DNA from: a virus
DNA: 46,207 nt
Virus record (IMG/VR): IMGVR_UViG_3300042560_001347
Span: 1 to 46,207 of that record
Strand: one strand, 5' to 3'
In this document: one piece after another, positions 21,049 through 45,653 of the stretch
How positions within the stretch are numbered: the first letter of the stretch is position 1
Layout: each line of letters starts with the position of its first letter
Position numbers and translations under genes: made by a program
The notes under the pieces: model-generated
The model's input: only the letters and a program-made list of their open reading frames with translations
Told to the model about the DNA's origin: nothing
The model's database searches: none

Positions 21049-24000
21049 ATGCCCAACTGGTACGACATCACCCGCGACGAGGAATATCAGTCTCTCTCCC
21101 CACAGGCTAAGGCCGACCTCAAGCAGCAGTTCTTTCAGCGTTCCTTCGCAGCCGATGATGAGTACAAGGGCCTGTCAGACAGTGGGAAGCAGGCAGTGTT
21201 TCAGAGCTTCATGCAGCAGCCCGATGACACGGGCCAGAACATCGTCACCAGCACACTCGGCTCCGCCGCACGCGGTTTCGGCGAAGTCGTTCCCGGCGCT
21301 ATCGAAGGCGTCGGTGCCCTCACAGGCATCGAAGAGATTCGTGGTGCTGGGCAAGCCGTGCGCGGTGGCCTCGAATACCTTGCACCCACCAACCCGATTT
21401 ACGAAGAAGGAAACATCGCCAAGGTCGCCGGAGTCGGCGGTCAGATCGGCAGCTTGGTCGCCACAGCGGGCGTCGGCGGTATCGCCAGCAAAGCTCTCTC
21501 TGGCGCGAAGATCGCCGCAGGAGCCACGGCTGCCGAGCAAGCCGCCCTTGCAGCACAAGCTGTCGGGCGCGGTGCCAAGGCAGCCTCTTACCTCTCGTCC
21601 GGTCTCCAAGGAGCCGCTGGCGGGGCCAACGAGGCAGAACGATACGGCCTCGAAGGGCCAGAGGCTTACCTCCGCATCCTTGCTGGCGCTGCCACGGAAC
21701 TCGGCAGCGAGGCTCTCCCCTTCGGCACTCTCACTGAAACCGCAGCCGCTCGCCGTCTGCTCGGCGAAGCGTTGCCGAACGCACCCGGCATCCGTCGCTC
21801 TGCGGTCACGGAGGGGGCGGAGGAAGTCGCTGCTCAGGTTGGCGGCAACCTTTCCACACAACTACTCGCCCCTCTCGGCACGGAAACTCCCGACCTCCTC
21901 GAAGGTGCTGGCGAAGCCGCTGCGCTCGGCGCAGTTGGCGGCGGCATGTTCGGTGCCCTGAACCGGCTCACGACGCCACGCACCCCCACCGTCGCCACCC
22001 CACCGCCCGTTCAGCCCGTCCAAGATGTCGCTGCAAATGTCGCCGCTGCCGACGAAGGGAGACCTGACTTAGCCGCAACACCAAATGTCGGCACGCCTGT
22101 CACCCTCGATGGGCAGAACTTCACCGTCACCATTCCGCCCGGCTCCGGCGTCTCGCCCGACGCGGTGGCCGGGTTCTACGACGACCCTGACACGCTTCGT
22201 GCTCTGCATGATCGTGGTGACATCCGCCTTGAGCAGGTCATCACACCGACGGAGACCGTCGATACCACGGACCTGAACAACAACGTCGCGGCGTCCGCTC
22301 CCTTCGCCCCGCAAGTGGCGAAGACGATGCAGGAGATCGCCGTTGAGGACTCCCTTCCCCAGCTTGCTGGGGACGTGGCTGCCGTGAAACCAGACCCCTT
22401 TCCTACCCAATCGGAACAATGGCTCCGAGACCGCTGGCAGCGGCTCGATGATACCCGTATGCGGCTTATCGAGAACGGAATGTTAGGGCAAGCCGCTGCG
22501 ATAGAGGATGAGCAAAAGCGGGTAGAGCGTTCCCTCTTATCACGATCTTCCCAGCCTGCCGTTACCCCCGCACAAGAAACCCCCGTCACTCCGGCTGAGA
22601 GTGACGGGGGCAGCCTTGGTCAGATGACACCTGCGGCGGGAGGGTCGAGTCCCGACGTTACCGCAGACATGGTTCCTCAACAGGAACCCGTGTCAAGTGC
22701 GGAAATCGCGCCTGCGGCTGACCCGTTCGCTGCGGCGGGGGAGCCGGTTGCCGAGGATGTTTTCCAGCCAGCGTCAGGGCAACCCGACTTGGGCGCAGGT
22801 GCCGCTACAACCCCGCGAGGGGCCATTGAAAGTCCCACAGCACCGCTGGCTGGAAAACCCGTAAAACCGGATCGCCCGAAGAAGGAGACCCGGAGACCCC
22901 CTAAGACGGTCGAAGCTGCGGAAGCGGCTATCGCGGAGCAAGCCGCTGCGGCTGAGTTTGTGGGTGATATTAGGGCAGAAGGACAGGAGGCCCGTACGCG
23001 CCAGAAGAAGGCGGCATTTATCACCGAGTTCGCAGAGGGTAGGAGGGAACCCGCCTTCCTCCAACAGCTACTAAGTGGTGGCTGGGATAAGGCACTGGAT
23101 GACGTTCAGCGCGGGCTTGTGACCGCCGACAGAGCTGAAAAGCTCGCGAAGGATGCAGAAGGTCGCGGCCTTATTGACGCCTTCACAGCAAGGAGGTTCT
23201 CTCAGCAGCCAGCACCCATCGAAGCGAAACCGAAGAAGGCCAGCCGCCCGAAAGTGGCGCAGCCTGCCGCCGTTGTCGAGCCAGCCGAGAAGCCCTCCCC
23301 CGGCCCACTTCGTCCGAAGTTCGTAGCCGGTGAGACGGTGTCGTTCAAGATCAACGGCCAGACCGTCATCGGCACCATTCAGCGTGTGAGCGGAGGTGGT
23401 AACGCCACCGTCGCCTACAACTGGAACGGGAAGAAGGATCAAGAGATCGTGCTGCGCACCTCCGAGATTCAACGCCCTGTGCTCGCTGTCGCCGAGGAGC
23501 CGAACTACAAATACACGCAAGAGCAGAACGCTCGCAAGGCTGCCCGCTTTGGCCTGCCAACGCAGCCCGGCGTCACGGTCAACGCTGGCGGCACCATCAA
23601 GACGGCACTCGAACGCATTGCCTCCGACCCCGCGATGCCCCAGATGTTGCGTGCCGTGGCCCGTGCATTGCAGAAGCAGAACTACGACGGCGTTGATCTA
23701 CGCATCGAGGCAGACGGTCGCCTTAACTACGCTGGCAAGTACGACCGGATGGATGATGGTCGTGCGCTCATCAGCCTCAACCTGCGTGCCGTATCTCGCG
23801 GGCAAGTTGACGCCATTGGTGTGTTTCTCCACGAGGTGCTCCACCACGTCACGCTCGGCAAGATCGAAGAGCCGCAGGGCGAGATCGAGACGCAGGCTGT
23901 CGAGGCACTCGACACTCTCCGCAAACGCATCAAGGCGTATGCGGGCATGCAGCAGCAGGCGACCGAGTTTTCTTACGAGTTGGGGTCGACTGGCGAGTTC

Positions 24001-27000
24001 GTCACTGCCCTCTTCACGCGCCCCGACTTCCAAGACCTCATCGCGGGGATTCCCGACACCTTTGTCCCCGGCACCCCCGGCTCGAAGTTCCGCAGCGTGT
24101 TGTCGGAAATCTTCCGCATCATCGCGCAGCTCGTCACCGGGCAGAAGGTGCAGAAGGGTGGCATCCTCGACCAGTCGTTCGCATCCACGCTCGCCTTGTT
24201 CGAGACGCCCCAACGGGCTGCTCGTGGACAGGGTGTGGACTACGCCTACGCGGGGGAGTCGGCGGAAGTTCCGCAGTTCATGCGTGACTCGCTCGACACT
24301 GCAAAGGCGATGGCGGCGGCAGGCAAGACGAGCGAAGAGATTCGCGCCGTCACTGGCTGGTTCCCCGGCAAGTATGACGGGAAGATGCGTTGGGAGGTGC
24401 CGGATGATGGGGCGACCATAAATAAGGAATACTTGAAGGAATTTGCCAATGGCGAGCGATCATCTATCACTCTTGGTAGATTTTTAGATCATGCTGCCCT
24501 ATACGAGGCATACCCAGAGGCATTTGATTTAACTGTAGAGTATGATGAACTTCTGAAGAGTGGGGGCGCTTTTCAAGGCGACACTATTTACTTCGGTCCA
24601 AACACAACGCGAGTTGATGGCACTTTGCTGCACGAAGTTCAGCACTGGATTCAGGATAAAGAGGGATTCGCTAAGGGCGGAGACTCTAAAATGGCTTTTG
24701 CTGACCCTAGGATGGGAATTGGCAGCAAGAAGGGACTTGCCGCTGCTAATAAAATCCTGCGAGAAATTCTCAATAACATGAAATCGCCCATGTCAATTGA
24801 GGATTTCGCTAAACGAGCGTGGGACTCAGATGTCATCTCTAATGAGATCATGGAATCTTACGATGACTACAGGAAATCATTTCTCAAGGCGTCTAACGAT
24901 CCAAATAACATACGCCTCGCTCAGCAGACAGCGGGTAAAGAGTGGTATCGCCGCCTAGCAGGCGAGATCGAAGCCCGCGATGTCCAAGCACGGCAGAACT
25001 TCACACCCGAGCAGCGCAAGGCAGTTGCCCCCTACTCCAGCGAGAACATCGCCAAGGAAGACGCCATCGTGATGTTCGGCGGCACGTCGCGCCAGTCCGC
25101 CACCGACACCCCCTCCACCCTCGCCCTGTTCGAGACGCCCCAACGGGCTGCTCGTGGTCAGGGTGTGGACTACGCGATGGCTGAGGATCGCCCCACCCGC
25201 ATCAAGCTGTCACCATCCGAGGCTGAACTCGCTGACTGGCTAGTTGGTGGACCCATGGGGGATACCTCCTCGATGGAAGAGGTGCTGGAACGGGATGTAG
25301 CAGAGTCGGAATTACCCACTGTTGAGAACGGGGAGCTTGTGCTGCCAGTCGAAGACGTGGCGACGGATGCGCTATACCGGGTGTCCGTGCAAATGGAAGA
25401 CATGATTGACGGGTACCGTGACGACGGGGCTACCCCTGCCCAAGTAGCGGCAGCCCGACGCGCTGCTAGGTCGCTCGCCGAAAAGATTCGTGCGACGTTG
25501 CCGAATGCACGTCAATCCGCCACCAACACCCCCTCCACCGCGCAACCCACCTTCACACCAGACGAAGCCCGTGCCATCCTGACCAAGCGGTTCGGGAAGG
25601 CGGTGGCTGACAAGTTTAACATCGAAGTGATGGCTCCTCGCCGCATGGGCAACCGTGAGGTGGAGGTCGATGCCGAGCTTCGCGGTGGCACGATCTCGCT
25701 GAACCTCAAGTTCATGGACAGCGAGGAAATGCTCATCCAGAAAGCCGAGCACGAGATGGCCCATGCCGTGTACACCGACAAGGGTGTGCAGGAAGCATGG
25801 CGCGAGTTGTCCGCCTCCATGCCGCCCGATGTCCGCGCACGCATCACCGAACGCATGGTCGAGGCTGGCTACGACTCCCGTGTTCTCAATGAGGAGGTGC
25901 TCGTGCGCTTCCTCGAAGAGGTCCGGGCCAACACTTCCCCCTCGAAGTGGAAAGCGTTCATGGACGCTGTTATCGACGCTTTCCGCCGCTTCTTCGGCGC
26001 GATGCCCGACGAGCGCACCGCACGCCTCGCCGCTGCCCGCATCATCGCAGCCGGTGAAGCGGCTGTTGCACGCGGGCTTGACCCCGCGAAGCAGGCGTTC
26101 GGGCAGAGCGTCTCCGATTTGCTGGGCAAGATGGATGCCGAGTACATGGCTGCCGTGGAGGCTGGCGACATGGTTAAAGCACAGCGCATGGTGGATGCGG
26201 CGGCGAAGGCGGCAAATTACGATACATCTTTACCATTGGTGCATCACACTTTTCGCGATTTTACCGTGTTCAAGATGGGAGGATATAAGCAGCCATACGG
26301 CGGGGCTGGTTGGAGCGGCAAAGGCGTATGGATGGAGCCTGAAAAACTATACCTTGCCAAAAAAGCAAAAGGCAAGAAGCCGAATATCGCTCACACTCAC
26401 GAGTATGAATCAAAGCTAGCCAAGGAGAAGTATGCGGACACAGAACGCCGCATGAAGACCCTACGCTTGTATGCTAAAATACTCAACCCTGTTGGGATAT
26501 ATGGGGCAAGTGGGACCGATTTTGCACAAGAACAGCGCGACGAGCATGGATTTAGTCGGTCCTTTCCCCTTATCATCACCGACAAGGATTTGGAAATCCT
26601 GAAAGCTAAGCAGAAGGACGCAGCTTTCACTGCTGATGAAAACGGGAATATCGAAGAAGTCATCGTTTTCTCTCCTGAGCAGATCAAGTCCGCCGACCCC
26701 ATCACCCGCGATGACGCTGGCAACGTGATCCCGCTGTCGAAACGCTTCGGCCCATCGCCCGACATCCGATTCTCCGTCGCCGGTCCACGCAAGGTCGCCA
26801 CCCAGCGCACAGGTGTCATCACTGACAAGTATCCCGGCGTCATCAACCTCGAAGTCCCGATCACATGGCCTGAACAGGTCAAGCTGGCGCAGGATGCCAT
26901 CACCAAGTACAAGAAGGCCAGCCAATCGAAGGACAAGGTTCAGGTGCTTGCCGACACTCGTGATGCGATCCTCACTGACAACGACATCCTTCTCAGCACG

Positions 27001-30000
27001 AAGATGGTTGCCCTCGACCTGCTCGCGCAGCAGGGGTCTATCCTCGCCAATCTCGCGCAGGCGGAGAGCGGATCACAGGTCAAGCTCGACGACTTCGCCA
27101 ATATCACAGCAACCGCCAACGGTGTTCTGGAGTCCAACCCTGCCGAGTTCGCTGATTACAGGTTCACGACCGGCGATGAGCTGGCGAAGCGGGCCTCCGA
27201 GGCTGGCCGCATGCTCAACATCATTCAGGCGATTGCCCGGCTGACCCCCGAGGGGTACATTCGCAGCGTGGAGCGCGTGCGCCAGAAGAAGGTGGACGCG
27301 GCGACCGAGCAGCAGTTCGGCACGCAGAACGTGATGGGTGAGATCGAGAAGTTGTGGCGCATGATGCAGGAGGCCGGTGCCACTGACCGTGGTCTCGCTA
27401 TCGCTGCCGCCCTGAAAGCGTTCATGCCCAGCCGGAAGAACGCAGCCCGTCTCATCGACCAACTGTTCCCGCAGGCGGGCATCCGTGACCGGATGACCAA
27501 AGGCGGCGAAGGGCTGGTGCGCGACTTCTTCCAGATGATCGCTGGCCCACGTGATCCGAAAAGTCCGCTGGCCGAGTTCGATGAATCCATTCAGTCGGCT
27601 CTCTCTTCGATGCTTCGCAAGGTGATGGAAGCACGCGGACTCGTCGCCGACAACCAGACCGTCCAAGCCACGGACATCGACAAGCTGGTGCGCTCTGTCA
27701 GCGCCGACCCGCTTCGCTTCGACAAGATCGCCGCAGCCGACGCCGCGATGCAGGATGAGCTTGCCAAGATTGAGGACGCCGAGCGCCGTGCCACGCTGCA
27801 ACAGGCGTGGGAGGAAGCCACCTCGAAGATGTACACCAACGTCGCCAACGAGGCTACGCTTCGCCGTGCTGTGAATGCCGAGTTGAAGGCAGCGGGCGTG
27901 AAGTGGAACGAGATGTTCGACAAGGGGCAGAAGCCCGCCGCGCTCCGCGCCAAGGTGGTCGATGCCGTGATGCAGAAAGTCGGCGCTCTGGTGACAGGGC
28001 AGACTGACCCTACTGCCGAGATCGCCGAACTGGAGAAGCGTTTGCAGGCTGAAACAGATGAGCAGAAACAGAAGCAACTGCGAGAGCAGATCGCCGATGT
28101 CCGGTCACAGGCAAACGCGCTGAAATCCAACCTCGACATGCTACGCTCCGAAGTGGGTGCCGCCTTCAACTTCATCGCGGAGACGAAGCGCGTGCAATGG
28201 CTCGCCTACCGCGCGGGCATCGAAGCCCGCCGCCGCGTTGCCGAGCGCCGGAAGGACATGCTTGCCGCGCTCCGCAATCGTGGTGTGGCTGAGAGCGCAC
28301 TCATGCGTCTCGCTGAGAAGATGGCGGGACCACAGCGCCCCGGTGCCGAGCCGAACCCCGTCTCCACGCTCATCGGCGAGCACCTCAAGGAACCCGTCGA
28401 AGGGTTCACCGACAAGCTCGTCGCCCTCGGCGTGGATCAAGCCACCGCCGATGCCCTCGACGCGATCTCCGGCACCGTGCGTGCCGACCTCGCGAAGCTG
28501 GCGGAGGCCAACGCTGTGAAGCGTCTCACGGACTCCCTCAAGCCGAAGACCAAGGCCGCGAAGTCTGCCATCCCGCGACTCCTTCGAGTGCTGCTGGAAG
28601 CAGGGAAGACTGGAGCATTCGACTCGAAGGCGTTCAACGACGCACTCGGCGAAGCCTTCGACCTGCCACCGATGACCGCTGACCAGCAGAAGGAAATCAG
28701 CCGCCTTGTGTCGGAGATCAACAAGCTGCCGCAGGGTGCCGCTCGCGTGGACAAGCAGCAGGAGCTAATGAACTACATGGCGCTCGTGCAGGGTGTATCG
28801 GTTCGCGACATGCTGCTCTCCATGTGGTATGCCAACATTTTGTCTGGCGTCTCGACGCAGACCATTGGGCTTGCCAGTAACACGGTCAACCTCGCCCTGC
28901 GATCCACGTTCCTCGCGCTCACCAACAACCCCGCTGACTTCGCGAACTACCTTCGAGGGGCACTTGGCGTCGGCAAGGATGCCGGTATTCAGGAGGTGAA
29001 GGCTGCCCTCGGCTCGTTCACGAAGCTCATCAAAGGGCAGCCCGAGCAAGTGCGTGCGCAGTTCAAGGTCGGACGTCTCGACTCCCCTGAGATCGCCAAC
29101 GCCCTCGAAGTGCTGTTCCGCAAAGGACCGACGACCATCCCGGAGTGGATCGCCTATATCGGCTCCGCAGGAACACGGCTGCGTGCGGTGTTCCGCATTA
29201 TGTCGGCCATCGACGCATTCTACTGGAATAGCGCCCGCGAAGGTATGTACCACCTCGCCGCCTCCCGCACCGTCCGCAAGATGGCGAAGGAGAAGAGCAT
29301 GACGACAGAGGAGTCCAACGCTGAGTTCATCCGCCAACTGGGCGGCGGGCCGGAGGCATACGAGCAAGCGTTGAAGGACGCCGAAGCCGCTCTCAAGAAA
29401 GCAGGCCAGCCTGCCGACATGTTCACGATGGACCGCATGGCGCGTGAAGCGATTGACAAGGTCCGCATGAAGCTGAACCCGGAAGCCGTGCAAGCGGCGA
29501 ACCGCTGGGCGGATCGCATCGTCTTTCAAAACGAGCCGGAGGGCATCGGCAAGATTATCAGCGCACTTATCCGCGCCATTCAGGGAGTCAACATCGCAGG
29601 GTTCCCGCTCGGCACGATGCTGGTCCCCTTCAACAAGATCGTCTCGGGCCTCTTCGAGCAGTCCCTTGATTACACAGGCATTGGGATCGTTCGCGGCATC
29701 CTCGGCATGCACATCTCCGACGCCCGTATCGACTGGAGCCGCAAAGGTATGCCCGGCATCTCCCCCGCCGACAAGGCGACGGTGTTCGACGATGTCGAGC
29801 GTTGGGAGCGTGCGATGGCCGGTTTCCTCGGCCTCACCATGTCCGCCGCTGCCTACATCGCGGCCAAGGCAAACATGGACGACGATGACGATGAAGTCCC
29901 GTTCATGCTTTACGCCTTCGGTCCCACGGACAAGAACAAGCGAGAGCAGATGCCCGAAGGCTGGGTGCCGTTTTCCATCAAGATCGGAGACACCTACTAC

Positions 30001-30804
30001 CGCTACGCTGAGTGGCCTCTCGGGATGGTGCTCGCTGGTTTCGCCTCAGCCTTGGACGCCGAGCGTTATGGCAACATGAAAGAGAAGGACACGCTGGACC
30101 GCATTGGCTACTCTGCCATGCTCGGCCTCAAGGGCTTTATGACGCAGGGCGTTCTCTCCAACGTGGACACGGCCATCGACGTGCTCATGTTCAAGGCCAC
30201 CGGGAAGAAGTACACCGACATCCCGGTCAACGCAGCCAAGGGTCTGATTCCCGCGCAAGGTGCCCTTCGAGATGTGAGTTCGCTGTTCGACAATACCAAG
30301 GTCAGCAACGACAGCATCGCGGCTGCTTTGATGAAGGACTTGCCCGTCGTCAAATCGTTGGGCACCAAGCCTGAGCTGAACATGTTCGGAGAGCCAACGC
30401 TCATGGAAGGCGAGGCCGTCCTGCGCCGGTTCCTGACACAGCGCCGTCCGCACGCCGAAGCCGACTACCTCACCCGCAACAAGCTATACATCCCCGGCAT
30501 GGACGAGACCGTGACCATCGGGCAATATCTGCCGCCGACAGAGCGCGACCGCTTCAAGCGTCGGGCGATGCAGATGCAGGCCATGGAGAACGGCGTGTTC
30601 ACGGCAGAGCAGAATTACGACTTCCGCAAACGTGCTGGCGAGCTGACGAAAGCAGCGGTGCAGCGCATTATGAAGCAGGCTCCAGCCGTCCGCACCGAGG
30701 AGCAACGGAAAGCCGTGCAGAACCTTATCGACAAGCAAGTTGGCCTTGCCCGACGCCGGGCGATGGTTGAAGCTGTTCCCTATCAACCCCCACCCGCACA
30801 ATGA
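21049..30804 (+). CDS. Giant polyvalent internal virion protein
   Basis: The product is 3251 residues. It starts with a 60-residue helical region, then Ala/Gly-rich hydrophobic segments (about 60-300), then Pro/Ala linkers. Motifs in order: an SH3-like stretch near 762; HEVLH at 928-932; an LPD23-like module with TGWFPG and HEVQH (1195-1199); HEMAH at 1568-1572; an ADP-ribosyltransferase-like module opening LPLVHHTF (His1732/1733) and closing with VIVFSPEQIKSADPITR; then over 1300 residues of coiled-coil and a C-terminal hydrophobic, Asp-rich region. This matches the polyvalent proteins of phages and conjugative elements, whose domains are delivered with the DNA to disarm host defences. Two modules are AT-rich, and 62-bp direct repeats flank the first. 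No frameshift. Confidence 0.85.
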   Translation: MPNWYDITRDEEYQSLSPQAKADLKQQFFQRSFAADDEYKGLSDSGKQAVFQSFMQQPDDTGQNIVTSTLGSAARGFGEVVPGAIEGVGALTGIEEIRGAGQAVRGGLEYLAPTNPIYEEGNIAKVAGVGGQIGSLVATAGVGGIASKALSGAKIAAGATAAEQAALAAQAVGRGAKAASYLSSGLQGAAGGANEAERYGLEGPEAYLRILAGAATELGSEALPFGTLTETAAARRLLGEALPNAPGIRRSAVTEGAEEVAAQVGGNLSTQLLAPLGTETPDLLEGAGEAAALGAVGGGMFGALNRLTTPRTPTVATPPPVQPVQDVAANVAAADEGRPDLAATPNVGTPVTLDGQNFTVTIPPGSGVSPDAVAGFYDDPDTLRALHDRGDIRLEQVITPTETVDTTDLNNNVAASAPFAPQVAKTMQEIAVEDSLPQLAGDVAAVKPDPFPTQSEQWLRDRWQRLDDTRMRLIENGMLGQAAAIEDEQKRVERSLLSRSSQPAVTPAQETPVTPAESDGGSLGQMTPAAGGSSPDVTADMVPQQEPVSSAEIAPAADPFAAAGEPVAEDVFQPASGQPDLGAGAATTPRGAIESPTAPLAGKPVKPDRPKKETRRPPKTVEAAEAAIAEQAAAAEFVGDIRAEGQEARTRQKKAAFITEFAEGRREPAFLQQLLSGGWDKALDDVQRGLVTADRAEKLAKDAEGRGLIDAFTARRFSQQPAPIEAKPKKASRPKVAQPAAVVEPAEKPSPGPLRPKFVAGETVSFKINGQTVIGTIQRVSGGGNATVAYNWNGKKDQEIVLRTSEIQRPVLAVAEEPNYKYTQEQNARKAARFGLPTQPGVTVNAGGTIKTALERIASDPAMPQMLRAVARALQKQNYDGVDLRIEADGRLNYAGKYDRMDDGRALISLNLRAVSRGQVDAIGVFLHEVLHHVTLGKIEEPQGEIETQAVEALDTLRKRIKAYAGMQQQATEFSYELGSTGEFVTALFTRPDFQDLIAGIPDTFVPGTPGSKFRSVLSEIFRIIAQLVTGQKVQKGGILDQSFASTLALFETPQRAARGQGVDYAYAGESAEVPQFMRDSLDTAKAMAAAGKTSEEIRAVTGWFPGKYDGKMRWEVPDDGATINKEYLKEFANGERSSITLGRFLDHAALYEAYPEAFDLTVEYDELLKSGGAFQGDTIYFGPNTTRVDGTLLHEVQHWIQDKEGFAKGGDSKMAFADPRMGIGSKKGLAAANKILREILNNMKSPMSIEDFAKRAWDSDVISNEIMESYDDYRKSFLKASNDPNNIRLAQQTAGKEWYRRLAGEIEARDVQARQNFTPEQRKAVAPYSSENIAKEDAIVMFGGTSRQSATDTPSTLALFETPQRAARGQGVDYAMAEDRPTRIKLSPSEAELADWLVGGPMGDTSSMEEVLERDVAESELPTVENGELVLPVEDVATDALYRVSVQMEDMIDGYRDDGATPAQVAAARRAARSLAEKIRATLPNARQSATNTPSTAQPTFTPDEARAILTKRFGKAVADKFNIEVMAPRRMGNREVEVDAELRGGTISLNLKFMDSEEMLIQKAEHEMAHAVYTDKGVQEAWRELSASMPPDVRARITERMVEAGYDSRVLNEEVLVRFLEEVRANTSPSKWKAFMDAVIDAFRRFFGAMPDERTARLAAARIIAAGEAAVARGLDPAKQAFGQSVSDLLGKMDAEYMAAVEAGDMVKAQRMVDAAAKAANYDTSLPLVHHTFRDFTVFKMGGYKQPYGGAGWSGKGVWMEPEKLYLAKKAKGKKPNIAHTHEYESKLAKEKYADTERRMKTLRLYAKILNPVGIYGASGTDFAQEQRDEHGFSRSFPLIITDKDLEILKAKQKDAAFTADENGNIEEVIVFSPEQIKSADPITRDDAGNVIPLSKRFGPSPDIRFSVAGPRKVATQRTGVITDKYPGVINLEVPITWPEQVKLAQDAITKYKKASQSKDKVQVLADTRDAILTDNDILLSTKMVALDLLAQQGSILANLAQAESGSQVKLDDFANITATANGVLESNPAEFADYRFTTGDELAKRASEAGRMLNIIQAIARLTPEGYIRSVERVRQKKVDAATEQQFGTQNVMGEIEKLWRMMQEAGATDRGLAIAAALKAFMPSRKNAARLIDQLFPQAGIRDRMTKGGEGLVRDFFQMIAGPRDPKSPLAEFDESIQSALSSMLRKVMEARGLVADNQTVQATDIDKLVRSVSADPLRFDKIAAADAAMQDELAKIEDAERRATLQQAWEEATSKMYTNVANEATLRRAVNAELKAAGVKWNEMFDKGQKPAALRAKVVDAVMQKVGALVTGQTDPTAEIAELEKRLQAETDEQKQKQLREQIADVRSQANALKSNLDMLRSEVGAAFNFIAETKRVQWLAYRAGIEARRRVAERRKDMLAALRNRGVAESALMRLAEKMAGPQRPGAEPNPVSTLIGEHLKEPVEGFTDKLVALGVDQATADALDAISGTVRADLAKLAEANAVKRLTDSLKPKTKAAKSAIPRLLRVLLEAGKTGAFDSKAFNDALGEAFDLPPMTADQQKEISRLVSEINKLPQGAARVDKQQELMNYMALVQGVSVRDMLLSMWYANILSGVSTQTIGLASNTVNLALRSTFLALTNNPADFANYLRGALGVGKDAGIQEVKAALGSFTKLIKGQPEQVRAQFKVGRLDSPEIANALEVLFRKGPTTIPEWIAYIGSAGTRLRAVFRIMSAIDAFYWNSAREGMYHLAASRTVRKMAKEKSMTTEESNAEFIRQLGGGPEAYEQALKDAEAALKKAGQPADMFTMDRMAREAIDKVRMKLNPEAVQAANRWADRIVFQNEPEGIGKIISALIRAIQGVNIAGFPLGTMLVPFNKIVSGLFEQSLDYTGIGIVRGILGMHISDARIDWSRKGMPGISPADKATVFDDVERWERAMAGFLGLTMSAAAYIAAKANMDDDDDEVPFMLYAFGPTDKNKREQMPEGWVPFSIKIGDTYYRYAEWPLGMVLAGFASALDAERYGNMKEKDTLDRIGYSAMLGLKGFMTQGVLSNVDTAIDVLMFKATGKKYTDIPVNAAKGLIPAQGALRDVSSLFDNTKVSNDSIAAALMKDLPVVKSLGTKPELNMFGEPTLMEGEAVLRRFLTQRRPHAEADYLTRNKLYIPGMDETVTIGQYLPPTERDRFKRRAMQMQAMENGVFTAEQNYDFRKRAGELTKAAVQRIMKQAPAVRTEEQRKAVQNLIDKQVGLARRRAMVEAVPYQPPPAQ
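24184..25175 (+). repeat. 62-bp direct repeats bracketing an AT-rich module
   Basis: Copy 1 is 24184-24245 and copy 2 is 25114-25175; three mismatches in 62 bases. The offset is 930 bases, exactly 310 codons, so the frame is kept. Both encode LALFETPQRAARGQGVDYA. Between them lies a module whose start is about 41% GC by hand count (24421-24540). A shorter related phrase (RQSAT-D/N-TPST) recurs near 25090 and 25510. Confidence 0.9.
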
Positions 30805-41746: not shown

Positions 41747-41971
41747 TCATACCAGTGATCGGATTGCGGATTTCAGCCGTTGTAGTTCGCCACGATTTTC
41801 TTCTTCCCCTTTTTCGAGGTGCTTGATCTTCGCTAATGCGCGTTTCAGCATGTTGACGAGCGCGTTCACGTTTTCGGGTTTCCGGTAGTGGTACTCATTC
41901 TCCTCGAAGTCCCTGACTTGCCAGATGAATACGATCTCTTCGGCAAAGGGGTTGGTGGGTTCGGGCGTCAT
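41747..41971 (-). CDS. Small coiled-coil protein, 74 residues
   Basis: An acidic N-terminal part with FIWQVRDFEENEYHYRKP is followed by a helical, heptad-like C-terminal half (MLKRALAKIKHLEKGEEENR). Unknown function. The start overlaps the methyltransferase stop inside the 23-bp repeat. Confidence 0.6.
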   Translation of the reverse strand: MTPEPTNPFAEEIVFIWQVRDFEENEYHYRKPENVNALVNMLKRALAKIKHLEKGEEENRGELQRLKSAIRSLV

Positions 41972-43170
41972 ACGCCGCAGTCCTCCAACGCGAGCTTCGG
42001 AACTCCGCAGCGTGCGCGGGCGATGGTGTAATACCCTTCGTCCTGCTCCATGCCGATGAACCGGAATCCCTCTTCCTTGCATGCTACTCCCGTGGACCCA
42101 CTGCCCATCCAAGGGTCGAGCACCGATCCACCGGGCGGCGTGATGAGGCGGCACAGATAGCGCATGAGCGCGATGGGTTTGACCGTTGGATGGTTGTTCT
42201 TCGATGGGTTGAACGGGCGCTCGCCTCGCTGCGGAATCGCGGCACCATCTCCCTTCCACTCTTTGTCTGGCAGGTCGGACAACCCGGCGTTGCGCTCCGA
42301 GGGAGATACCTTCGCGCAGTAGAAGAAGCGGGCAGCGGAGCCGGAGTCGCCGCGTGGCTGCATGGGTACAGTGCTGTGACGCATCGCTCCATACACCGCG
42401 TTACCCATCGGTGCCCCGTCCGCACGACTAGCGGCTAGCTGGCCTTTACTCTGAGGAAACAGTCCAACCACCTCATCGCTGCCGTCGTGAATCAGGTTGG
42501 CGGGCCAGCGTCCTTTACTCGTATCTGGACGGTCAAACTCGGCGCGCTCACCGTCATGCTGCGTCCCTCCTGCGAGTGCCCCCGATTTGGCGGTGACTTT
42601 CCCTTGGGGGGTAGCTGACGCACGGTCCGCTTCGGATTGATGCACCACCCGGCACCCGTCCACGTTGATCGCCCCAGTGTGCCACTTGAGCACGTTGGCT
42701 GCGACTGTCCCTTCGAGGGGCTTACGCGCCAGCGTGATCGGTTCCAGAGCAGGCTTGAGCGCGGTGCCCCACCCGTCCCACTCGCCTTCGAGGTTGTGAG
42801 ACTTCGGGAAGCCAGAACCGTACAGCCAAGCCACCAAATCGCGAATCTCGAAACCTGCCAGCCGTAGGCCAAGGGACATTAAATCCTGTGTCCGTGTTCC
42901 TGCAAAGGCGAGGACGTGACCACCGGGCTTGAGCACCCGATACACCTCACGCCACTGCATCGGCTGCGGGACGAAGTTGTCCCACGCCTTGCCCATGAAT
43001 CCGCGCTTGCTCTTCACGTCGTGGTGCCCCGTTTCCAGCCAGTCACGCAGCATGGCGAGCGCGTCAGGTGGATCGCCGAGACCGTATGGCGGGTCGGTGA
43101 CAACCGCGTCGATGCTGTTGTCTGGTAGGGTGGCAAGGAGTGCGAGGTTGTCGCCGTGTAGTAGTGTCAT
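41968..43170 (-). CDS. N6-adenine/N4-cytosine DNA methyltransferase
   Basis: The product is 400 residues. Motif IV DPPYGL (Asp26-Tyr29) comes first and motif I DPWMGSGSTG (about 352-361) last, the order of beta-class N6/N4 enzymes. Between them lies a long target-recognition region. VLAFAGTRTQDLM and NNHPTVKPIALMRYL are the usual flanking phrases. It would modify phage DNA, probably to evade restriction; no cognate nuclease is adjacent. Four-base overlaps on both sides. Confidence 0.9.
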   Translation of the reverse strand: MTLLHGDNLALLATLPDNSIDAVVTDPPYGLGDPPDALAMLRDWLETGHHDVKSKRGFMGKAWDNFVPQPMQWREVYRVLKPGGHVLAFAGTRTQDLMSLGLRLAGFEIRDLVAWLYGSGFPKSHNLEGEWDGWGTALKPALEPITLARKPLEGTVAANVLKWHTGAINVDGCRVVHQSEADRASATPQGKVTAKSGALAGGTQHDGERAEFDRPDTSKGRWPANLIHDGSDEVVGLFPQSKGQLAASRADGAPMGNAVYGAMRHSTVPMQPRGDSGSAARFFYCAKVSPSERNAGLSDLPDKEWKGDGAAIPQRGERPFNPSKNNHPTVKPIALMRYLCRLITPPGGSVLDPWMGSGSTGVACKEEGFRFIGMEQDEGYYTIARARCGVPKLALEDCGV

Positions 43171-43616
43171 ACCTCCCCCTCCATGTTGAGCAGGAACTTC
43201 TCACGATACGACTGCATCTCGGCGGACGACATCGAGCCGTTGCCGTTCATCTCCGCGTGCATGACGTGCGATGGGTTGGCGGAATGCGGGAGATCGAAGA
43301 CGTGACCGAACTCGTGGAGCATGGTGACGTAGAGGTTGTTGCCCTTGCCGGTGAATCGCTGCCACCACGTCGTTGCCCACTTTTGGTCAACGGCGATGAC
43401 GATTTCCCACTTGTCGGGTCCGTGATGTCGGCACTCGGCAATCCGGCCCGGATGCTTCTGGCGGTCGATGTTGCCGAAGTGGATGAGGATGTTGAGCATC
43501 TGCGTCGCGTCCTCCTTGAGAGCTACGAGGTTAGAGAGGATGCTATTCCACTTTGCCGCTGCCTTGCGGGCGGATGAGTGGATGGCGGGTTCAGCGAGGT
43601 AGGTGAGTGTGGTCAT
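43167..43616 (-). CDS. Metzincin-type zinc metalloprotease-like protein
   Basis: The product is 149 residues. HEFGHVFDLPH (His101, Glu102, His105, His111) is the extended zinc site HExxHxxGxxH in slightly varied form, and HVMHAEM with Met119 supplies the Met-turn, as in matrixin-like proteases. No signal peptide or prodomain is visible. It lies between a DNA methyltransferase and a hypothetical gene, an unusual place for a protease. Substrate unknown. Confidence 0.7.
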   Translation of the reverse strand: MTTLTYLAEPAIHSSARKAAAKWNSILSNLVALKEDATQMLNILIHFGNIDRQKHPGRIAECRHHGPDKWEIVIAVDQKWATTWWQRFTGKGNNLYVTMLHEFGHVFDLPHSANPSHVMHAEMNGNGSMSSAEMQSYREKFLLNMEGEV

Positions 43617-43619
43617 AGT

Positions 43620-44213
43620 TCAAGGTTCTCCGATCTGGCATTCAGCCGTGTATAGGTGTTCAAGGGACTCGAAGCGCGGCAGCACTTCGCAGGGTTTCTC
43701 GAAAGCGGTGTCCACGCTCAGGACGCGGTTGTTCGGGACGGCGGCAAACCAGCCCTGCTCGACCTGTAGGACGTGGAGTTGTTTATGCTGTTGGAAGTCG
43801 TCAGCCAGCGCGTTCCCCTCGAAGTCGATGGTGAACAGGTAGCGTGCATTCAGGCGCTCGGGAAAGCCTGCAATCTTGCGCACGTTGAGGAGCTGCGCGT
43901 TGCCGCGTTTCCACAGCGCGAACTCATGCACCGTGAAGGTCGAGGAGAAGGTGTCCCACGGCTGTATCAGTTCCACGTCAGGCAGCTCGCAGGGCTTCCA
44001 GCACAGGGCTTGGATGGGCAAGCAGAACATAGCACCCGCGCACTCATGCTCGTCGAACCGGACTTGGAATTGCAGGCTCGCCGCTTCCTGACAGCGGACG
44101 CCGAGGATGTGGGCTTTCAGGTACTCGCCCTGCCCGCTGGTGTGATTCTGCGTGAACTCTTTGCGGACTAGGCAGCGAACGATGGAGGGAGTGTCGGAGA
44201 GAATGAATGGCAT
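43620..44213 (-). CDS. Hypothetical protein, 197 residues
   Basis: Not recognised. It is an alpha/beta protein with several cysteines (CQEAAS, HECAGAMFCLPIQALCWKPC) in the first half and FTVHEFALWKRG in the middle. The start ATG 44213 lies in a 28-bp repeat that is also found ahead of the next upstream gene. Confidence 0.6.
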   Translation of the reverse strand: MPFILSDTPSIVRCLVRKEFTQNHTSGQGEYLKAHILGVRCQEAASLQFQVRFDEHECAGAMFCLPIQALCWKPCELPDVELIQPWDTFSSTFTVHEFALWKRGNAQLLNVRKIAGFPERLNARYLFTIDFEGNALADDFQQHKQLHVLQVEQGWFAAVPNNRVLSVDTAFEKPCEVLPRFESLEHLYTAECQIGEP

Positions 44214-44506
44214 AGTGTTGGGGTTCGTTGGTCATTTCCATGTGCTTGTTACCAGCCAGCACCAATACCACAAAGTCGCGTATTGGACTTCGTTGCCTTC
44301 GGTATCGACGAAGCCGGATGGTGGGTAAAGGGACCGCTGAAATCTGCGCGGCGATGCCGGGGTAACGCGACGTAGCCAGCGGACGGAGTGAATCCACGCA
44401 ATCGCGTGAGCTTTAGCTTTGACCCACTGTCGCAGGGTTGCCCGCTGCGTGGAGTCGAGTGTGGTAGAGTCTGGTTTCATGGCATAGTGTTGGGGTTCGT
44501 TGGTCA
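44207..44506 (-). repeat. 28-bp direct repeat forming two gene leaders
   Basis: Positions 44207-44234 and 44479-44506 are identical over 28 bases, offset 272. On the minus strand each begins with a TGA stop of the preceding reading frame and ends at or beside the ATG of the next gene. The upstream stop in the second copy belongs to the alternative frame of the cytosine methyltransferase. Confidence 0.9.
44232..44480 (-). CDS. Hypothetical basic protein, 82 residues
   Basis: Begins MKPDSTTLDSTQRATLRQWV, has an Arg/Trp-rich middle and ends in an aromatic hydrophobic tail (YATLWYWCWLVTSTWK). A GTG at 44507 would add nine residues encoded by the 28-bp repeat; I favour the ATG because the repeat looks like a leader. 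No family recognised. Confidence 0.5.
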   Translation of the reverse strand: MKPDSTTLDSTQRATLRQWVKAKAHAIAWIHSVRWLRRVTPASPRRFQRSLYPPSGFVDTEGNEVQYATLWYWCWLVTSTWK

Positions 44507-45640
44507 CGGTTTAGAGGGTTTGGAGGTAGGCGCTGACGAACTCCGCCGCGACTTGGGGAACGATTGCATTGCCGTAACCGCGCAGTCGCACCACTCGGGC
44601 GGGAATCCCATGAGCCAGCGGGAAAAATGCGGGTTCAGTTGGAACGCGGCGGGTTTTCCCGTCTCGGCAGGCGACGAGTCGGGAGGCATTCCAGCATCGA
44701 AGCAGTCCCTCGCCAGACATCGGTTGTCCCGGCTTTGCGGCGTCAGTTTGTTCGCTGTTGGAGTTGCCCATCCATCCAAGTGCATTGGACTCGACCAGCC
44801 CGTGATTGTCTGCACCTGAATCGCAATCGGCATTCCGGCCCCGTTGCCATTCCCGTGCTTCGCCTTGTTCTTGGTCTGGCGGGCATCCCACGTCTCCAAC
44901 CCCTCCCCGTCGTTCATGTTGTTGGCATTGGGTGTCGCCCACCCGGATATTGTCGCCACTTGCCGAGGTAGGTTGGCCGACCCCTTCTCTGAGTCCATTG
45001 CCCGAATCAACGCTTCCGAACTCGCTGAATCCTTGTAGTCCCGCGCATTCGGAGTCGTCCACCCTATCACTGCATCTTGCAACCTCATCGCGTGCCTCCC
45101 CGCTTGTGACGGGCCTGTTCCTCCCGCGCAAGTGTCTGGTGTGGGCCACCCAGTACAGCCTTTGTCGGATGTGCGGCGAGCCGACGCTGTGTGCGCCCAA
45201 TACGGTCGCCCCGCAGGCGTAACCTTCTGACTCCAAGTCTGCTGATACTCCGTCGAGCCAGCCGTGCCCAATCGCGCTTGCAACCTGCTCGCCAAAGACT
45301 GTGTTAGCCCACGGCTGGCCGTCGTCCCTACAGGCGCAGATGAGGGTAAAGAAGACTGGCCAGAGGTGTCTCTCGTCTTTTTGCGCGAGTCCTTTACCGG
45401 CTGTGCTGAATGGCTGGCAGGGGCATGATCCAGTTCCAACAGACTTTGACGCAGGCCATCCGGCGAGTTGGAGGGCAAGGGGCCATCCGCCAATACCAGC
45501 GAAGAAATGACACTGAGTATATCCGCGCAAGTCCCCTGGAGTGACTTCGGTAATAGATCGCTCATCGACAATACCGTTCGGGATGAGTCCGCGTTTGATG
45601 AGTTCTCGCAGCCATGCGGCGGCTTTTGGGTCGTGTTCAT
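44504..45640 (-). CDS. Alternative-frame protein inside the C5 methyltransferase gene
   Basis: This frame is open for 378 residues across nearly all of the methyltransferase gene. It reads like a genuine phage protein: QTWSQKVTPAGRPYWAH, then SARRTSD; five GW-x-[TS]-P motifs (at 164, 193, 233, 281, 290), several followed by NARD/NAN/TAN; and a C-terminal LNPHFSRWLMGFPPEW (335-350). From memory, proteins with exactly these phrases are found in other phages and prophages. The ATG at 45640 is 13 bases inside the methyltransferase start and shows no Shine-Dalgarno. Whether it is translated is unproven; it could be a conserved shadow. Confidence 0.5.
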   Translation of the reverse strand: MNTTQKPPHGCENSSNADSSRTVLSMSDLLPKSLQGTCADILSVISSLVLADGPLPSNSPDGLRQSLLELDHAPASHSAQPVKDSRKKTRDTSGQSSLPSSAPVGTTASRGLTQSLASRLQARLGTAGSTEYQQTWSQKVTPAGRPYWAHTASARRTSDKGCTGWPTPDTCAGGTGPSQAGRHAMRLQDAVIGWTTPNARDYKDSASSEALIRAMDSEKGSANLPRQVATISGWATPNANNMNDGEGLETWDARQTKNKAKHGNGNGAGMPIAIQVQTITGWSSPMHLDGWATPTANKLTPQSRDNRCLARDCFDAGMPPDSSPAETGKPAAFQLNPHFSRWLMGFPPEWCDCAVTAMQSFPKSRRSSSAPTSKPSKP

Positions 45641-45653
45641 TATAATAATTCAT
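44511..45653 (-). CDS. C5-cytosine DNA methyltransferase
   Basis: The product is 380 residues. Motif I FFAGIGG (50-56), motif IV PCQPFS with catalytic Cys80 (the CPCQ cysteine), motif VI as GEQVAS (121-126) rather than the usual ENV, motif VIII QRLYWV (164-169), motif X GYGNAIVPQVAAEF near the end. The target-recognition region is Gly/Asp-rich with recurring VGD/MGN phrases. A second frame is open through the entire gene (see 44504-45640). The ATG at 45653 lies in an AT-rich spot, and an upstream extension to 45830 crosses the neighbouring gene. Confidence 0.88.
   Translation of the reverse strand: MNYYNEHDPKAAAWLRELIKRGLIPNGIVDERSITEVTPGDLRGYTQCHFFAGIGGWPLALQLAGWPASKSVGTGSCPCQPFSTAGKGLAQKDERHLWPVFFTLICACRDDGQPWANTVFGEQVASAIGHGWLDGVSADLESEGYACGATVLGAHSVGSPHIRQRLYWVAHTRHLRGRNRPVTSGEARDEVARCSDRVDDSECAGLQGFSEFGSVDSGNGLREGVGQPTSASGDNIRVGDTQCQQHERRGGVGDVGCPPDQEQGEAREWQRGRNADCDSGADNHGLVESNALGWMGNSNSEQTDAAKPGQPMSGEGLLRCWNASRLVACRDGKTRRVPTEPAFFPLAHGIPARVVRLRGYGNAIVPQVAAEFVSAYLQTL

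Follow-up and report, generated by a model that had tools for sequence, protein, structure and literature searches.

The window, a 46,207-nucleotide stretch of viral DNA (positions 1 to 46,207 of IMG/VR record IMGVR_UViG_3300042560_001347), has two overlapping ORFs read on its minus strand, alpha in frame 1 and beta in the +1 frame. The alpha gene (44511..45653, -) specifies the 380 aa catalytic part of a C5 cytosine methyltransferase, recognised by PF00145, phrog_363 and, both by profile and by predicted fold, M.HhaI. Read from an ATG at 45640, the +1 frame stays open for 378 codons, up to the TGA at 44504-44506, seven bases past the alpha TAA. Within it the beta gene is placed at 44504..45565 (-) on the strength of phrog_1008, the conserved open frame and start-codon clustering; from the ATG at 45565 its product would be 353 aa, and from the earlier ATG 378 aa. 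Beta is nested within alpha save for its own final 7 bases, its codons begin at the second position of alpha codons, and the third position of alpha is the second of beta. A reading made from sequence inspection alone had proposed a C5 methyltransferase gene open in two frames, and both ORFs are present.

A 28-bp direct repeat at 44479..44506 has a second, 100% identical copy at 44207-44234, 272 bp away. The sequence-only reading took it as weak support for use of the beta TGA. Each copy lies where a downstream ORF begins, ATGs are part of the repeated sequence, and its overlap with the beta TGA is incidental and no evidence for use of that stop; it is possibly a shared leader or regulatory element. 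About 1.3 kb downstream of alpha and beta is a second DNA methyltransferase gene (41968-43170, -; N6_N4_Mtase, PF01555, E=8.5e-28), so the phage has at least two DNA methyltransferases, and adjoining it is a gene for a predicted matrixin-like metallopeptidase (43170-43616, -; PF00413, E=5.2e-07). A single ORF of 3251 aa at 21049-30804 (+) is very long for a 46-kb phage contig.

The motifs attributed at first sight to the main frame, I, IV, a VI-like element, VIII and X, are conserved columns across relatives. Motif I (HFFAGIGGW, 45483..45509, -) has columns that are invariant or nearly so, and motif IV (GSCPCQPFS, 45405..45431, -), with the catalytic Cys, has P78, C79, Q80, P81 and S83 invariant. 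Motif VI (FGEQV, 45282..45296, -) is GEQV rather than the canonical ENV, with its Glu conserved and G121, E122, Q123 and V124 invariant. Also invariant are R163 and R165 of motif VIII (PHIRQRLYW, 45150..45176, -) and G361, N362, A363, I364, V365, P366 and Q367 of motif X (RGYGNAIVPQVAAEF, 44538..44582, -), where the AF2 model has a helix at 366-379. Motif IX is absent. The match to PF00145 (E=2.8e-11) covers residues 74-177 only and that to phrog_363 (E=9.6e-71) spans the length of alpha. The PCQ of IV, the Glu of VI, the RxR of VIII, the GN of X and an HhaI-like catalytic fold identify alpha as a C5 methyltransferase; it does not qualify as a complete enzyme on its own, as motif IX is in the +1 frame and no folded recognition region is predicted. 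In the AF2 model, for which the input rows were the window and IMG/VR loci only, residues 1-170 are of high confidence with dips near 81-90 and 151-160, pLDDT is 34-50 over 181-310, the part near 321-340 is partly confident, that at 342-359 is low and the motif X helix is confident. The alpha text between VIII and X, with its VGDT/MGNS phrases (44664..45131, -), includes the poorly modelled stretch and has frame-2 codon periodicity.

Three features can be distinguished in beta. Its N-terminal core (GSTxYxLTWKxxxTPxGR, 45179..45322, -), predicted by AF2 as a helix plus beta-hairpin, overlaps the alpha codons of the motif VI to VIII region. A region of GW-x-[TS]-P repeats follows (44717..45151, -; 3' edge approximate), the homologue of a recognition region by hhalign and repeat counts; its motifs number exactly five, as first counted (GWPTP, GWTTP, GWATP, GWSSP and GWATP). 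The third is a motif IX equivalent (LNPHFSRWLMGFPPEW, 44591..44638, -) in which W317, L318 and G320 are invariant; the LNPxxSRWLMGxPxxW block to which it belongs is nearly invariant in related phages, resembles C5 motif IX and recurs in the main frame of single-chain enzymes. The suspicion that the second frame belongs to a recurring phage protein family was borne out by phrog_1008 (E=2.3e-24), whose profile of 329 positions is matched from 42 to 287, the greater part of its length. Beta alone had no match in Pfam or NCBIfam, its profile gave only a chance hit among PDB sequences, and Foldseek with the beta model found nothing convincing in the PDB. The AF2 model of beta alone is poor (mean pLDDT 56.7), with confidence confined to the helix and hairpin at residues 82-129 (mostly 76-93) and to the motif IX helix. 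Such a model is what would be expected of an isolated half-domain, which is not proof, and a small-domain fold for beta is hypothetical.

The openness of the +1 frame was compared with that in synonymous-codon shuffles, which leave the alpha protein and the number of each codon unchanged. A +1 frame as open as that of the window came up in only 1 of 1000 shuffles. Over a set of 91 loci, made up of the window, 80 IMG/VR relatives and 10 loci from annotated phages, the median +1 open fraction is 0.90 vs 0.46 in shuffles, and in 56 of them no more than 10 of 1000 shuffles opened the frame as far; not every locus is significant alone, some GC-rich ones being individually non-significant, because open +1 frames arise readily in GC-rich genes. 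The check proposed at the outset, that second-frame homologues be free of stops, was borne out: almost all of the 90 relatives, divergent phages among them, keep beta open. A stop does break beta in L039, a relative, and in L259, a bacterial copy, at the least. The +2 frame in the same loci is full of stops, and among 23 single-chain relatives serving as control the +1 opening is 0.32 vs 0.30 in shuffles, with none at p<=0.01. The open second frame is not chance, in keeping with the initial judgement that its 378 codons are non-random.

Divergence at alpha four-fold sites, computed over 291 pairs, is 0.54-0.73 through codon 100, drops to 0.16-0.32 at codons 101-160, depressed over the N-terminal core of beta, and is 0.49 in bin 161-170; the poorly aligned middle bins are noisy (0.14-0.62). 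It reaches 0.018 at codons 341-350, over beta SRWLMGxP, and is back at 0.557 past the end of beta (codons 371-380), and the part of beta that lies ahead of alpha codon 100 is little constrained. The single-chain control family has no divergence drop at motif IX. In a nucleotide alignment favouring neither frame, divergence between VIII and X at alpha positions 1, 2 and 3 is 0.34, 0.234 and 0.194, the pattern of beta codons, and of 21 non-overlapping pairs, 19 diverge more at position 1 than at position 3 (p=2e-4, to be read as indicative since the pairs partly share ancestry); one example pair, L032/L056, has 0.20, 0.06 and 0.01. Substitutions between VIII and X track beta codons and therefore point to beta as the constrained protein there. 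The sequence-only reading had suspected dual-coding constraint, and the second refutation it proposed did not come about, since alpha synonymous sites are strongly depleted of variation where beta overlaps. Its implication that the recognition region is in the methyltransferase frame is not supported, the frame constrained there being that of beta. Dual coding of the locus is supported by these comparisons, with the alpha text between VIII and X probably largely filler, a by-product of beta coding.

The identity of beta is best judged against relatives in which everything is in one frame. Single-chain actinophage enzymes (L120, L123-L159) have the same domain order, and in L123-L159 one frame runs from IV to VIII through TP-rich repeats and a PEWMMGWPAGW block to X. 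Their TP-repeat region and PEWMMGWP motif IX are homologous to beta and their IV-VIII part to alpha, yet a single frame holds all the motifs, with +1 neither open nor constrained. Profile-profile alignment (hhalign) puts beta on residues 268-496 of a single-chain C5 methyltransferase (P 96.1, E 3.1e-9) and alpha on residues 73-253 of the single-chain enzyme (E 6e-18), and the one polypeptide of L123 matches both phrog_363 (2e-65) and phrog_1008 (3e-48). Judged by profiles, the C-terminal region of beta, roughly two thirds of it, is the homologue of that segment of single-chain C5 methyltransferases which holds the recognition region and motif IX; no counterpart of the N-terminal helix and hairpin core was identified in the single-chain enzyme. 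It was suggested initially that the second-frame product could be an anti-restriction or specificity partner, and the latter, not an unrelated anti-restriction protein, is favoured because of this C-terminal homology.

Dual coding, the split of the motifs between the frames and the C-terminal homology of beta are what can be read from sequence itself. The interpretation that we prefer, with a probability of about 0.86, is that the locus specifies one two-subunit C5 cytosine methyltransferase from overlapping frames, with alpha catalysing and a separately initiated beta supplying recognition and motif IX in trans, and with the two assembling to methylate DNA. Alpha, with I-VIII and X and without IX or a well-folded recognition region, would be the catalytic chain and bind AdoMet. 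Beta, translated separately from its own internal +1 start, would contribute the target-recognition region with its GW-x-[TS]-P repeats and the motif IX of its LNPxxSRWLMGxPxxW block, and the two would associate as do the large and small domains of an ordinary one-chain C5 methyltransferase. The assembled enzyme would methylate phage DNA, probably protecting it against host restriction.

How beta is made is best considered with two families in mind. In that of the window, +1-frame ATGs are concentrated between alpha codons 26 and 43, a Shine-Dalgarno sequence preceding many of them, and a few loci can start beta only near alpha codon 92. The ATG at 45565 is most likely the beta start in the window, favoured because of this clustering; its Shine-Dalgarno is weak. 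The ATG at 45640, taken as the start at first, fares poorly by comparison, related loci often having +1 stops at alpha codons 1, 18 and 23 and more up to about 37. The second family has 71 loci with a median GC of 0.51, and its beta is open over a median 98% of alpha, an extent reached by 0 of 300 shuffles in 60 of the 71; its beta profile aligns with that of the window family (E 9.8e-18). There, among L160-L239, the alpha and beta starts overlap as NTG-A-ATG-AG (NTGAATGAG), 4 nt apart, with one Shine-Dalgarno before both (median -7.5 vs -4.0 kcal/mol in controls), and the alpha position is ATG, TTG or GTG in 58 of the 71, whereas about a dozen have no usual start codon there.

These arrangements favour independent initiation over programmed frameshifting, in which beta would have no start of its own and alpha ribosomes would slip to +1 after motif VIII, giving a fused catalytic-plus-recognition chain. 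The collinearity of the alpha and beta parts with the single-chain enzyme is what such slippage would produce, and at locus L121/L165 motifs IV and IX share a frame. However, motif X is back in the alpha frame, and a complete fused enzyme would take two shifts; constraint on the beta frame sets in as early as alpha codon 101, before motif VIII is reached; and neither the ATG cluster at codons 26-43, some members of which have a Shine-Dalgarno, nor the starts 4 nt apart behind a single Shine-Dalgarno would be expected, so that frameshifting is improbable. The L121/L165 locus (two handles for the same contig), with IX in frame with IV and X out, is the reverse of the usual split and is either a sequencing error or a real frameshift.

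Products of nested phage genes are often unrelated counter-defence or lysis proteins, and beta could by that general precedent be an independent anti-restriction or regulatory protein whose overlap with a methyltransferase gene is incidental. This is a slightly poorer prospect still, as beta holds the very recognition region and motif IX missing from alpha, with single-chain gene order kept, and no complete beta without an overlapping alpha occurs among 149 genomes of one bacterial family, that of a Tatumella relative, where beta matches are present in 9 genomes and each overlaps an alpha except for one 99-aa fragment. That the second frame is open merely through conserved alpha residues and GC-rich codons, with no product, is refuted as a full explanation and hardly credible in any form: some of the conserved words of alpha do influence what +1 reads (WLMGFPPEW in beta comes from the codons of PLAHGIPARV), GC is commonly high and certain GC-rich loci are non-significant singly, but in most loci shuffles preserving alpha with its codons do not reproduce the opening, alpha synonymous sites are strongly conserved only under the beta overlap, position 1 is more variable than position 3 between VIII and X, the single-chain control is without any of these signals, and the C-terminal part of beta is homologous to in-frame sequence elsewhere.

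The two-subunit methyltransferase proposed here has partial precedents. M.EcoHK31I, whose target is YGGCCR, reportedly has its beta gene nested in alpha in another frame, and a smaller gene nested in a larger one in another frame is also what the window has. C5 methyltransferases split naturally or artificially work from two chains, and split ones come together again in experiments (PMC3404938). The larger polypeptide of M.EcoHK31I has motifs I-VIII and X and the smaller has motif IX, with a predicted recognition domain described in the larger subunit (PMC3404938). The motif distribution is the same here, I-VIII and X in one polypeptide and IX in the other, but unlike that description the recognition region is in beta and its alpha counterpart appears largely filler, the likeness being one of motif layout as described. 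M.AquI (CYCGRG), a natural two-chain C5 methyltransferase, is split inside the variable region (PMC3404938); its second subunit has the distal half of that region together with IX and X, whereas at the present locus X stays with alpha, in the alpha frame, and the two genes overlap almost completely. Two-chain C5 methyltransferases being already known, what appears new is the recognition region in beta, set against the description of M.EcoHK31I.

Alpha is phrog_363 and beta phrog_1008, both labelled 'DNA methyltransferase' and kept as separate families in PHROGs without remark on two frames. Escherichia phage K1ind2 has both frames annotated as nested, ORF29/ORF28 ('C-specific methylase'/'Mte8-like protein'), with no mechanism attached; both are annotated in Xanthomonas phages PhiXhv-5 and PhiXhv-18 also, and several other records give one frame only. 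In Erythrobacter phage vB_EliS_R6L (L093), Pseudomonas phage PACT201 (L094), Cy-LDV1 (L003) and phiKX1 (L004) a minus-strand 'hypothetical protein' is annotated over alpha and beta, with alpha shortened or omitted, the overlapping frames apparently confusing gene callers. A literature search, with most subscription journals outside its reach, found nothing on nested phage C5 methyltransferases and one passing mention of 'Mte8'; the ShiLan paper concerns an out-of-frame HNH insertion, a different matter.

With motif frames assigned by a position-weight scan, motif IX is at +1 and motif X in frame with IV in 186 loci, and both IX and X are in frame with IV in 24 single-chain loci; a few loci have other arrangements, and 26 were unscorable. 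In actinophage loci L141, L142, L143, L144, L147 and L149, IX and X are together in a frame other than that of IV, a layout that may reflect a split of the M.AquI type or else the insertion of an element (compare PMC11855218). The split arrangement is present in enterobacterial genomes and in phages of very different hosts, and mycobacteriophage methyltransferases, e.g. Royals2015 gp75, also carry a +1 beta. Two plasmid records have alpha and beta, one of them bearing phage structural genes. A single beta sequence as query against genome contigs found one locus only.

In a tree of the catalytic part, unrooted and sampled by similarity, the single-chain enzymes are one cluster among the split ones. 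Motifs IX and X are 59 nt apart in 163 of the 186 split loci; among the 24 single-chain loci the distance spans 90-99 nt, and in 19 it is 90 nt. The 31-nt difference changes frame, as an indel between IX and X, in either direction, would be expected to do. A broader proposal, to which we give somewhat better than even odds, is that a widespread class of phage C5 methyltransferases has its recognition half inside the catalytic gene at +1, displaced in frame from its single-chain kin by shifts before the recognition region and between IX and X. One ancestral enzyme would then have been folded onto itself, with the beta repeats free to vary specificity and the alpha text a tolerated filler.

Many phage 'DNA methyltransferase' annotations appear to be of half an enzyme, and alpha expressed alone as annotated would probably be an inactive or non-specific protein. 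The question is also raised of whether the 'predicted recognition domain' of M.EcoHK31I alpha deserves re-examination. Among overlapping gene pairs this one stands out as clean and frequent: each product is predicted to be half of the same enzyme, and single-chain kin serve as controls. It opens to test both the splitting of an enzyme across frames and the site of its specificity, which may be in the beta repeats.
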